Below are positions 17,223 through 21,097 of a stretch of 34,581 bases of DNA, in pieces. The notes beneath the pieces are model-generated. The model searched no databases and was not told the DNA's origin. It saw only the letters and a program-made list of their open reading frames with translations. Position 1 is the first letter of the stretch, and each line of letters opens with the position of its first letter. Source of the DNA: Longimicrobium sp. (GTDB taxonomy: Bacteria > Gemmatimonadota > Gemmatimonadetes > Longimicrobiales > Longimicrobiaceae); assembly GCF_035474595.1 (NCBI RefSeq), contig NZ_DATIND010000115.1:1-34581 (forward strand). Reading direction: 5' to 3'. A program made the translations under genes and the position numbers.

Positions 17223-17888
17223 GTGCTCCGCTCCCGCTCCGCCGCCCTCTTCGCGGCCGCGATGCTCGTCCCCGCGATCCTGGCCGCGCGCCCGCGCCCG
17301 GAGCTCGCCGCCGCGGGAACCATCGAGGGCCACGTCCGCCTGTCGCCCTCCGCGCCGCGCCGCATCGCCAACCGCTACCCGGGCGAGGGTGCCGCGGCGG
17401 CGCATCAGGTGGGCGCCGTTCCCCCGGTCGCCTTCCTGGTGGGGCGCGTGGGCGGCGCGCCCGAGCGTGCGGAGCGGCCGCGGCTCACGCAGCAGGACAC
17501 CTCGTTCCGGCCGCCGGTGCTGGTGGTGCCGGTGGGAACGCAGGTGGAGTTCCCCAACCGCGACCCCTTCTTCCACAACGTCTTCTCCTACTCCTCCACC
17601 AAGCGCTTCGACCTGGGGCGCTACCCGCGCGGCGAGTCGCGCACGGTGGTCTTCGACCGGCCGGGGATCGTGAAGGTGTACTGCGAGATCCACCAGTGGA
17701 TGCGCTCCGCCGTCCTGGTGGTCGAGAACCCGTACCACGCCCAGGTCTCCCCCGACGGCCGCTTCACCATCCAGGGCGTGCCGCCGGGGCGGTACAGGCT
17801 GGCCGTGTGGGACTTCGACCGCGGCCAGAAGATGGTGGACGTGACGGTCCCCGCGGCGGGAGTCGCGCGGGTGGAAGTAAATCTTTAG
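17223..17888 (+). CDS. exported cupredoxin-like protein with carboxypeptidase-regulatory-like domain
   Basis: A 221-residue exported protein. GTG 17223 follows GGAGAA; the signal peptide covers about residues 1-22. Residues 95-172 form a plastocyanin-like domain: VVPVGTQVEFPNRDPFFHNVFS with His118, then VYCEIHQWM with Cys154, His157 and Met160, the four type 1 copper ligands. A short beta domain follows (SPDGRFTIQGVPPGRYRLAVWD), like carboxypeptidase-regulatory domains. The family is often described as methylamine-utilisation or plastocyanin-like and acts as a periplasmic electron carrier or copper protein. With the two lysyl-oxidase-like genes it gives three predicted copper proteins side by side, divergently arranged. 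No redox partner is next to it. Confidence 0.88.
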   Translation: MLRSRSAALFAAAMLVPAILAARPRPELAAAGTIEGHVRLSPSAPRRIANRYPGEGAAAAHQVGAVPPVAFLVGRVGGAPERAERPRLTQQDTSFRPPVLVVPVGTQVEFPNRDPFFHNVFSYSSTKRFDLGRYPRGESRTVVFDRPGIVKVYCEIHQWMRSAVLVVENPYHAQVSPDGRFTIQGVPPGRYRLAVWDFDRGQKMVDVTVPAAGVARVEVNL

Positions 17889-17896
17889 AAGAAACA

Positions 17897-18051
17897 GAAG
17901 TCCTGAGTCCCAAGTCCCAAGTCCCAAGTGCCAAGTGGGTTGCGATGTGCCTCCCCTGCGCCTCCGAGACCGCTCATCTTTTCACGTAGGACTTGGGACT
18001 CAGGACTTGGGACTCAGGACTTGGGACTTAGGACTTAGGACTTAGGACTTC
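17897..18051. repeat. 7-bp tandem repeats forming a long inverted repeat
   Basis: The left block (17897-17936) is a run of AAGTCCC-type 7-base units; the right block (17987-18051) is a run of the complementary units (GGACTTG, GGACTCA, GGACTTA). The two blocks can pair over about 33 bases around a 50-base loop. The structure fills nearly the whole gap between the cupredoxin stop and the cyclase start, so it may end the first transcript or shield the second start. Confidence 0.75.
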
Positions 18052-18091
18052 CGTTATCCCTATTCATCCCCAACCCCGATCCCCGCGCCCC

Positions 18092-21000
18092 GTGACCCGC
18101 CGCACCTCCTGGCTCGACCGCGTCCGCCACTCCTTCGCCGCGAAGCTGCTGCTCGCGCTGGCGGGGTCGGTGGGCGTGCTGCTGCTGGTGACCATCCTCA
18201 GCGTGCGCGCGCAGACGCGCCGCCAGGTGGCCGTGGCGGTGGAGCGCTCGCTGGCGCAGTCGCGCAACGTGTTCGCGCAGCAGGAGGGCGAGCTGCGGCA
18301 GGGGCTGGAGACCACGGCGGGGCGATGGGTGGGCGGCAACCGCCTGGGCGCGGCGCTCGACGACGCGCTGCAGTCCGGGTCCACCGACATCCTGGCGCAG
18401 ACCGCCAGCTACGAGTTCCAGCTCGCCGCCTCGCGCGACACCGTGCTCGCCGGCTTCACCGACGCCGACGGGCGCCCGGTGGCCTCGGTGATGAACGACC
18501 GGATGCTGGCCGGGCCGGCGTCCGCCATCCCCGGCCCGCTCGTCTCCTGGCTCCTCCCGTCCGACAGCATCGGCGCGTTCGGCTACCACCTGCTGAACGG
18601 CCGCCTCTTCGCCGTCTACGTCACCCGTCTCCCCCTCTTCGACAACCTGGTGGGCACGCTCACGCTGGGGACGATGGTGACGGACTCGGTGGCGCGCGAC
18701 GCGGGGGTGGCACTGGGCGCCGAGGTCTGCTTCGTGGCCGCCGGGCGGTGCGTGGCCTCGTCGCGCGGGGTGCGCGGGGGGATGGCGACGCAGATGGTGG
18801 CGATGGCCGGCGCGCGCGGCACCCGCCGCGTGAATTGGGGCGGGCGCCGCTGGGTGCTGACCGCCGACCGCATCTCCACCGGCGCGGGGATGCAGCAGGC
18901 GTGGCGGGTGACGGCCTTCCCGCTCGACGGCGTGCTGGGGCCCTTCGAGACCATCCAGCGCGCCGAGGTGCTGGCCGGCGCCTTCTCGCTGGCGCTGGCC
19001 ATCCTGGTGGGCCTCTTCCTCTCGCGGCAGTTCGCGCGCCCCGTCCGGGCGCTCGTCGCCGCCACCGAGCGCGTGGCCGCGGGCGACTACGACGTGCGCG
19101 TGGAGGCCACCACCGGCGACGAGCTGGGGACGCTGGCCGACGCCTTCAACGAGATGACGCACGGCCTGCTGCTGAAGGAGCGCTACCGCGGCGTGCTGGA
19201 CAAGGTGGTCTCGCGCGAGATCGCCGACGAGCTGCTGAAGGGCGAGATCACGCTGGGCGGCGAAACGCGGCGCGTGACCACCCTGTTCGCCGACGTGCGC
19301 GGCTTCACGGCCATGACCGAGGGGATGGAGCCGCAGCGCGTGATCGCCCTGCTGAACGAGGTGATGGAGCGCGCCGCCGAGGCCATCCACCACGAGGGCG
19401 GCGTGGTGGACAAGTTCGTGGGCGACGAGGTGATGGCCGTGTTCGGCGCCCCCGTCTCGCGCGGCGACGACGCCGACCGCGCGGTCCGCGCCGCGCTCCG
19501 CATCCGCGCCGGCATCGAGGCGCTGAACGCCGACCGCGCCGCCCGCGGCGAGCCCACGCTGGGGATGGGGATCGGGATCAACTGCGGCCGCGCGGTCGCC
19601 GGGAACATGGGGTCCACCGGCCGCCTGAACTACACCGTCCTCGGCGAGTCGGTGAACGTGGCCTCGCGCCTCTGCGACCAGGCGGGGCCGGGAGAGATCC
19701 TCGTGGTCCAGCCCTTCCTGGCCGAGCTCAAATCCCCCGTCGGCGCCGTCCCCCTCGGCCCGCGCGCCTTCAAGGGGATCTCCGCCCCGCTCGAGGTCTA
19801 CGCCCTCCGCGCCGCGGGGACGGCGGGCGGCGATGCGGCTTCATCGACGACGACCCTCCCCGCCGCCGCGACGGCGGCGATCGCGCTGATGCTGGGGATG
19901 GGCCTGGCCGTGACGCCCGCGCGCGCGCAGGAGCTGCCGACGCTGCAGGAGCTGGGGATCGGGTGGACGTCGCCGGGCGGCTTCCTCCAGGTCACCCCGT
20001 CGGGGCGATTGGAGATCGCGGGCTACGTGCCGGGCAACGTTCCCGCGTGGCTCATCCCCACCACCCACGCGTTCGTGGCGCCGCGCGCCAGCCTGTTCGT
20101 GGACCTGTTCGCCGGGGAGCGCGTGTACGGCACGGTGGAGCTGCGCGCCGACCGCGGCGAGGCGCCGGCCGACCGGCCGCTGCGCGGGCGCATCGAGCAG
20201 GCGTACCTGCGGGTGACACCGCTCGCCGGCGCCAACGTGAGCGTGCAGGCGGGAAAGTTCGTCTCCCCCTTCGGCGGCTGGCCGCAGCGCCCCGCCGTGC
20301 CCGCCGAAGAGCCGTTCATCCGCCCTCCCCTCCCCTACGACTACCGCACGATCATCTCCCCCACCTTCGTCTCCCTCGGCTCCGCCGGGTTCCTCACCTG
20401 GAAGGACCGCCCGCGGGAGTTCCGCGCCACCGGCGCGCCGGTGGTGTGGAACGCGCCGTACCAGCTGGGGGCCATGGTGAGCGGCGCGTGGAAGGCCGTG
20501 GGGTTCCGTGCGGCGGTGATGAACAGCGCGCCCTCCAGCGAGCCCCGCGAGTGGAACCGCCTGGGCGCGGGCGAGCACGGGCCGTCGTGGGTGGCGCACG
20601 CCAGCGTGCAGGTGGTGCCGGAGCTCAGGATCGGCGCGTCGTGGAACCGCGGCAGCTTCCTGCAGGACGAGCTGACCAACGCGCCGCTCCCGTCGGGAAC
20701 GTCGGTGCGCGACTACTTCCAGGAGATCTGGGGGTTCGAGGCGGCGTTCGCGCGCGGGCCGGTGGCGGCGAAGGGCGAGCTGCTGCTGGACCGGTGGGAC
20801 GTGCCGAACGTGGCCGACTACCCGCGCGACGTCTCGTTCTACGGCGAGGCGCGGGTGAAGGTGACGCCGGGCCTGTTCGCCGCCGCGCGCTACAGCGGCA
20901 TCCGCTTCGACCGCATCTCCAACGGCTCGGGCGGCGAGGTGATGTGGGACTACCCCATCGACCGCCTGCAGCTGGCCGCCGGCTACCGCCTGGGCCGCAC

Positions 21001-21097
21001 CACCGAGGTCCGCGCCGAGTACCTGCTCAACTCGACCGACGCGCCGCCGGCGGGGAGCGACGACCTGGTGTCCATCCAATGGAGTTGGACATTCTGA
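18092..21097 (+). CDS. membrane adenylate/guanylate cyclase fused to outer-membrane beta-barrel
   Basis: A 1001-residue single open frame. Residues 15-38 form a membrane helix, about 40-285 an extracytoplasmic sensor region, about 288-311 a second helix, and 310-362 a HAMP domain. The class III cyclase domain (about 390-560) has metal Asp401 (FADVRGF) and Asp445 (VDKFVGDEVMAVFG), purine-contact Lys441 and LNYTVLGESVNVASRL with the Asn and Arg of the transition state. Glu replaces the usual Asp at the second base-contact site, so ATP versus GTP is open. Residues 591-613 (AIALMLGMGLAV...ARAQ) look like a signal peptide; 614-1001 is a porin-like barrel ending in SWTF. GTG 18092 has no clear ribosome site. 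Either a true IM-OM fusion or two proteins made by internal cleavage. Confidence 0.85.
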   Translation: MTRRTSWLDRVRHSFAAKLLLALAGSVGVLLLVTILSVRAQTRRQVAVAVERSLAQSRNVFAQQEGELRQGLETTAGRWVGGNRLGAALDDALQSGSTDILAQTASYEFQLAASRDTVLAGFTDADGRPVASVMNDRMLAGPASAIPGPLVSWLLPSDSIGAFGYHLLNGRLFAVYVTRLPLFDNLVGTLTLGTMVTDSVARDAGVALGAEVCFVAAGRCVASSRGVRGGMATQMVAMAGARGTRRVNWGGRRWVLTADRISTGAGMQQAWRVTAFPLDGVLGPFETIQRAEVLAGAFSLALAILVGLFLSRQFARPVRALVAATERVAAGDYDVRVEATTGDELGTLADAFNEMTHGLLLKERYRGVLDKVVSREIADELLKGEITLGGETRRVTTLFADVRGFTAMTEGMEPQRVIALLNEVMERAAEAIHHEGGVVDKFVGDEVMAVFGAPVSRGDDADRAVRAALRIRAGIEALNADRAARGEPTLGMGIGINCGRAVAGNMGSTGRLNYTVLGESVNVASRLCDQAGPGEILVVQPFLAELKSPVGAVPLGPRAFKGISAPLEVYALRAAGTAGGDAASSTTTLPAAATAAIALMLGMGLAVTPARAQELPTLQELGIGWTSPGGFLQVTPSGRLEIAGYVPGNVPAWLIPTTHAFVAPRASLFVDLFAGERVYGTVELRADRGEAPADRPLRGRIEQAYLRVTPLAGANVSVQAGKFVSPFGGWPQRPAVPAEEPFIRPPLPYDYRTIISPTFVSLGSAGFLTWKDRPREFRATGAPVVWNAPYQLGAMVSGAWKAVGFRAAVMNSAPSSEPREWNRLGAGEHGPSWVAHASVQVVPELRIGASWNRGSFLQDELTNAPLPSGTSVRDYFQEIWGFEAAFARGPVAAKGELLLDRWDVPNVADYPRDVSFYGEARVKVTPGLFAAARYSGIRFDRISNGSGGEVMWDYPIDRLQLAAGYRLGRTTEVRAEYLLNSTDAPPAGSDDLVSIQWSWTF

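Follow-up and report, generated by a model that had tools for sequence, protein, structure and literature searches.

A predicted adenylate cyclase-porin polyprotein joined through an internal signal sequence in Longimicrobium sp. and its relatives

The window, meaning the whole 34,581-nucleotide stretch of Longimicrobium sp. DNA analyzed here, carries at 18092-21097 (+) a single uninterrupted frame of 1001 aa that encodes both a cyclase and a porin. We consider it very likely that the product is a polyprotein whose internal signal is cut by signal peptidase I, giving an inner-membrane cyclase and an outer-membrane porin in a 1:1 ratio that likely work as one module. Cleavage, outer-membrane insertion and cyclase activity are what we infer from the features described below; gene order points, more weakly, to a function shared by the two parts. 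Genome assemblies, most of them metagenome bins, supply all the evidence on the fusion. The assembly of the host genome comprises 6.57 Mb in 163 contigs, and the hosts of the fusion gene form a group of bacteria from soil and groundwater.

The gene starts with GTG at 18092, as it also does in its closest relative, and stops at 21095-21097. Its product consists, in order, of a first transmembrane segment (TM1), a periplasmic sensor, a second transmembrane segment (TM2), a HAMP domain, a class III adenylate cyclase, a linker, a signal-like helix and a porin barrel. Translation, Pfam searches and AlphaFold models reproduced the coordinates, frame and domain order given by an earlier, sequence-only reading. 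Hydropathy and the AlphaFold model are also consistent with the topology it had claimed, with a cytoplasmic cyclase, a third hydrophobic segment running outward and the barrel beyond it.

TM1 (18140-18211, about residues 17-40) has a hydropathy of 2.55 over residues 20-38 and is a helix in the AlphaFold model, while TM2 (18950-19024, about residues 287-311) has a hydropathy of 2.43 over residues 293-311. The sensor domain predicted to lie between them in the periplasm (18212-18949, about residues 41-286) was modeled as a mixed alpha/beta domain. The dCache_3 family (PF14827) has no match in the window sensor; it does match the homologous sensors of four histidine-kinase relatives (L054, L060, L064 and L059). 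The HAMP domain (PF00672, 59 bits) occupies 19016-19168, residues 309-359. The catalytic domain (19262-19816, residues 391-575) was assigned by Pfam, structure alignment and Foldseek; the Guanylate_cyc match (PF00211) covers residues 392-547 at 74.7 bits against a curated cut-off of 21.9, and the fold ends near residue 575 in the AlphaFold model. When the domain was compared with the structures of CyaB, CyaC and Cya2, all six catalytic residues were present and aligned with those of CyaC, and they are invariant across the 12 aligned fusion sequences. These are D401 and D445, which bind the metals, K441 and T515 of the adenine site, and the transition-state residues N522 and R526. With its catalytic residues intact, the cyclase should produce cAMP, judging from its sequence. 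The sensor-HAMP-catalytic order and the aligned catalytic residues are shared with HAMP-containing class III cyclases such as Pseudomonas CyaB, Spirulina CyaC and cyanobacterial Cya2. In contrast to membrane cyclases of this type, the window protein adds a third hydrophobic segment and a porin after the catalytic domain.

The predicted mature porin (19928-21094, residues 613-1001) has its first strand at residue 632 and ends in a C-terminal Phe. Modeled alone, the barrel reached a pLDDT of 85.2 and a pTM of 0.85. The phosphate porins OprP and OprO were the best matches to this model (Z 27.7-28.1 over 308-311 residues, at 15-16% identity), and general porins matched it less well (Z about 24). 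In Pfam the barrel is recognized only by BBP2, at 15.1 bits, which is below the cut-off of 26.2, and a search of its sequence profile against solved structures gave no convincing match (best E 0.28). The barrel shares its predicted fold with the 16-strand OprP/OprO porins, but it is only 15-16% identical to them, lacks an N-terminal start of its own and is encoded behind a cyclase.

Having searched other genomes, we found the in-frame cyclase-barrel fusion at 13 loci including the window, distributed over three families of the order; the 12 further loci bear out the claim that the fusion is a real gene. A barrel profile search placed three of them in the window's own family (L012, L013 and L014), and nine lie in two further families (L041, L043, L047, L048, L050, L051, L053, L076 and L075). 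The 12 full-length fusion proteins align from end to end and share 37-82% identity with the window protein. The sequence-only reading had proposed, as evidence against itself, relatives in which the two parts are always separate genes with an ATG at the junction. What we found is the opposite: all 13 co-directional cyclase-barrel pairs are fused, and none was seen as separate genes. One fused locus, L075 on the minus strand, is interrupted by an in-frame stop within its cyclase domain, between frames that end at 694 and start at 697, and may be a broken gene copy or an assembly fault.

Histidine-kinase relatives in other families of the phylum suggest how such a fusion could arise. There the order of cupredoxin, sensor and barrel is kept and a histidine kinase output replaces the cyclase; where the genes are unfused, the barrel has an ordinary N-terminal signal peptide at the equivalent place. 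The sensor stop and the barrel start overlap by 4 nt in three of these loci (L057, L058 and L064), and in L060-L063 and L065 the two are no more than about 11 nt apart. Given this overlap or near-contact, the fusion probably arose by loss of a stop and start between coupled genes, as judged from these gene arrangements. One histidine-kinase locus is itself fused: the gene at L059:5325-9011 (-), in genome G268, runs from kinase through receiver to barrel as a single 1229-aa frame, and its junction reads LAAGSRRVHA|Q. It was seen in one assembly only, and other species of its genus keep separate frames. Fusion therefore probably occurred at least twice, once and lastingly in the cyclase form, and once and recently in the kinase form of that one assembly. 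The barrel tree, in which support for the root and for several branch points is weak, would fit one fusion event within the cyclase clade and a later single split or replacement in the L044/L045 group, whose barrel and cyclase are divergently transcribed.

Upstream of the fusion gene, at 17223-17888 (+), lies a gene for a 221-aa exported protein with cupredoxin-like and carboxypeptidase-regulatory-like parts (weak Pfam matches to Copper-bind and CarboxypepD_reg). Its sequence FFHNVF ... CEIHQWM has the ligand pattern of a type 1 copper site, and the ligand motifs are conserved. A cupredoxin gene precedes the fusion in every complete cyclase-type module, and it is kept across both output types.

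Retention of this kind bears on the question of whether cyclase and porin belong together at all. The polyprotein could be cut as proposed and the fusion still be a neutral accident of stop loss, joining a cyclase and a porin that share no function. One small change can join overlapping genes, and some relatives have a barrel without an adjacent cyclase (L074, L020, L049 and L052). However, the fusion has been kept over deep divergence, down to 37% identity and in 13/13 co-directional pairs, and sensor, cupredoxin and barrel stay together even where the output is a histidine kinase. We regard a neutral origin of this sort as unlikely, though it deserves consideration.

The junction itself speaks to how the two parts would be separated. 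After the cyclase comes a disordered linker (19817-19855, residues 576-588; pLDDT <50) that varies in length and sequence among relatives; over the set of junctions compared, linker lengths run from 31 to 115 aa. It is followed by the signal-peptide-like segment (19856-19927, residues 589-612), a predicted third membrane crossing that ends in A-R-A; it forms a helix at 591-606 in the AlphaFold model and has a hydropathy of 1.96 over residues 589-607. The window signal has no positive residue just before its hydrophobic core, the nearest being R573. The predicted signal peptidase I site, ARA|Q (19919-19930, residues 610-613), would be cut between residues 612 and 613. When 14 junctions (13 cyclase-type and one histidine-kinase-type) were aligned at the predicted cut, with the A|Q register set by eye by locating AQ in each junction sequence, all 14 carried Ala at -1 followed by Gln at +1. 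At -3, 12 of the 14 have Ala, Gly, Val or Thr and the other two have Leu, and the remaining positions are variable. Part of the constancy of the +1 Gln may reflect inheritance, not selection.

Comparison with the closest relative, whose protein is 82% identical, shows the same pattern at the codon level. The two differ at the junction by a 2-codon indel that keeps the frame, and over residues 561-613 there are 31 nonsynonymous and 5 synonymous codon changes, with both frame and AQ kept. The HAMP-cyclase part has 32 nonsynonymous and 52 synonymous changes; by this comparison the linker sequence is little constrained, yet its frame is maintained.

Two proteins could also come from this frame by internal translation initiation, that is, by a re-start in the same frame with no cutting. 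GTG codons in the linkers of four relatives (L013, L014, L047 and L048) would yield plausible signal peptides, and coupled starts are the arrangement of the histidine-kinase relatives. The position of such a start is not conserved, however, and three junctions (the window, L012 and L043) lack any ATG, GTG or TTG that would give a signal of at least 17 residues. The only in-frame ATG that would do so is in L075, where it lies inside the conserved end of the cyclase. Internal starts are thus rejected as a general mechanism, and as an account of these genes we find them improbable. Together, the invariant A|Q and the three junctions without a usable start favor a single precursor cut by signal peptidase I, so that of the two fates suggested by the sequence-only reading, cutting at ARAQ fits best.

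The other fate, in which the protein stays uncut, links inner and outer membranes and lets the pore drive the cyclase directly, was not borne out. A single frame with the correct topology would allow it. Yet the segment between signal helix and strand 1 is only about 20-25 residues long and, fully extended, would span at most 7-8 nm. The usual width of the periplasm is about 15-25 nm, and for this reason above all we think a continuous tether very improbable. The variable linker offers no extra reach; since it precedes the helix, on the cytoplasmic side, it cannot bridge the periplasm. Nor would an uncut protein need the A|Q that is invariant at 14/14 junctions. The further idea of the sequence-only reading, that the pore might set cyclic nucleotide levels, is speculative.

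We find it scarcely credible that an error of assembly or sequencing created the open frame, with a base or stop lost near 19830-19890 between what are truly two genes. An out-of-frame ATG at 19833, which opens an arginine-rich stretch (MRLHRRRPSP...), at first resembled a lost porin start, but 12 other loci, assembled separately, carry the fusion in frame, so neither chance nor error accounts for it, and the relatives are fused in frame regardless of that ATG.

As we picture the cut polyprotein, its N-terminal part would insert through TM1 and TM2, placing the sensor in the periplasm and the HAMP and class III adenylate cyclase domains in the cytoplasm. The hydrophobic segment 589-612 would then act as an internal in-to-out signal sequence, with the C-terminal part exported through Sec. 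Signal peptidase I would cleave after A612, and the freed porin chain (613-1001) would be folded into the outer membrane by BAM. The cyclase would remain an inner-membrane protein, the spent signal now serving as its third anchor, and the two products would be made 1:1. The host genome has two signal peptidase I genes and, on the side of cAMP signaling, at least one short CRP-like frame. Together with the upstream cupredoxin, cyclase and porin would most likely constitute one signaling module, in which the sensor may read something that passes in by way of its own porin, or in which that porin takes part, and report it as cAMP. Most porins are made in large excess over sensors. A 1:1 output would be unusual for a porin and suggests a dedicated pore for the sensor rather than a bulk porin; gene order, and the fact that barrel and cupredoxin are kept with both output types, likewise suggest a porin dedicated to its sensor. 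A fuller proposal, which we advance tentatively and with some doubt, is that of a one-gene trans-envelope unit, cut by signal peptidase, which pairs a cAMP sensor 1:1 with its own porin and, with a copper protein, reports on traffic through the pore, such polyproteins having been built on at least two occasions, with a cyclase in one and a histidine kinase in another.

The FbcH cytochrome b/c1 polyprotein of Bradyrhizobium japonicum is reportedly cut during export at an internal signal at its junction. As in the window, one gene would supply two membrane-associated partners by way of an internal junction signal, although cleavage in the window is predicted. The features that define the FbcH type are found here as well: two proteins in one frame without a second start, and an internal hydrophobic segment with a signal peptidase I motif. 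The difference lies in the destinations, as the FbcH products stay in one inner-membrane complex, whereas those of the window would go to different membranes, as a signaling cyclase and an outer-membrane porin. The FbcH paper of Thony-Meyer, James and Hennecke (1991; PNAS 88:5001) is listed among the references of PMC6976685. Autotransporters are also single polypeptides with a C-terminal outer-membrane barrel, but both of their parts are exported behind one N-terminal signal, whereas the window has an internal signal and an N-terminal enzyme. We rejected an autotransporter assignment, as the N-terminal part consists of two TM segments, HAMP and cyclase and is predicted to be cytoplasmic. In the literature searched, neither a cyclase-porin nor a kinase-porin polyprotein is described. 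The sequence-only reading's remark that no such system had been described therefore stands, within that literature, for the cyclase-porin composition; it does not extend to the processing principle, since internal-signal polyprotein processing is known from FbcH.

Bacterial polyproteins cut at an internal signal are rarely described, and here the fusion is conserved across families, its predicted products, which include a signaling enzyme, being bound for two different membranes. If the parts co-operate, this would offer a tractable example of a sensor that gene fusion has paired with an outer-membrane pore of its own, and it would define a cupredoxin-sensor-porin module in which the output domain is swapped between cyclase and histidine kinase. 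A practical consequence is that gene callers can conceal outer-membrane proteins within "adenylate cyclase" annotations.

Several further observations concern the relatives and the neighborhood. The CxxCH haem c motif is absent from the fused barrels; it occurs in five unfused barrel relatives (L020, L044, L045, L049 and L052), in an insert between strands 1 and 2, and the sequence suggests that these are electron-carrying porins. At L074:1-1635 the barrel directly follows a cupredoxin gene and has its own ATG, and no cyclase was found on this 6-kb contig. The sensor-HAMP part of a histidine kinase/receiver protein at L041:745-2988 (+), whose gene immediately precedes the cupredoxin and fusion genes, is a near-duplicate of the cyclase's own (short tree branches), which suggests a recent exchange of output domains. 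A scan of named genomes limited to two peptide patterns returned relatives in Gemmatimonadota and one partial barrel in an Acidobacteria record, a 207-aa frame at L046:5977-6600 that comprises the C-terminal half. Directly before it lies a gene whose product, judged by eye, resembles a cyclic-nucleotide-binding plus GAF protein. The Cys-x2-His-x2-Met motif of the cupredoxin-like protein is present in 25 of the 25 distinct loci listed. Adjoining the cupredoxin gene in the window, and divergent from it, are two tandem genes for lysyl oxidase domain proteins (PF01186; 14637-16540, minus strand); in other organisms, members of this family are copper enzymes. Short repeats of the type ACTTGGGACTCAGG, both direct and inverted, occupy the gap ahead of the fusion gene (17900-18055), and similar repeats precede the L012 copy.
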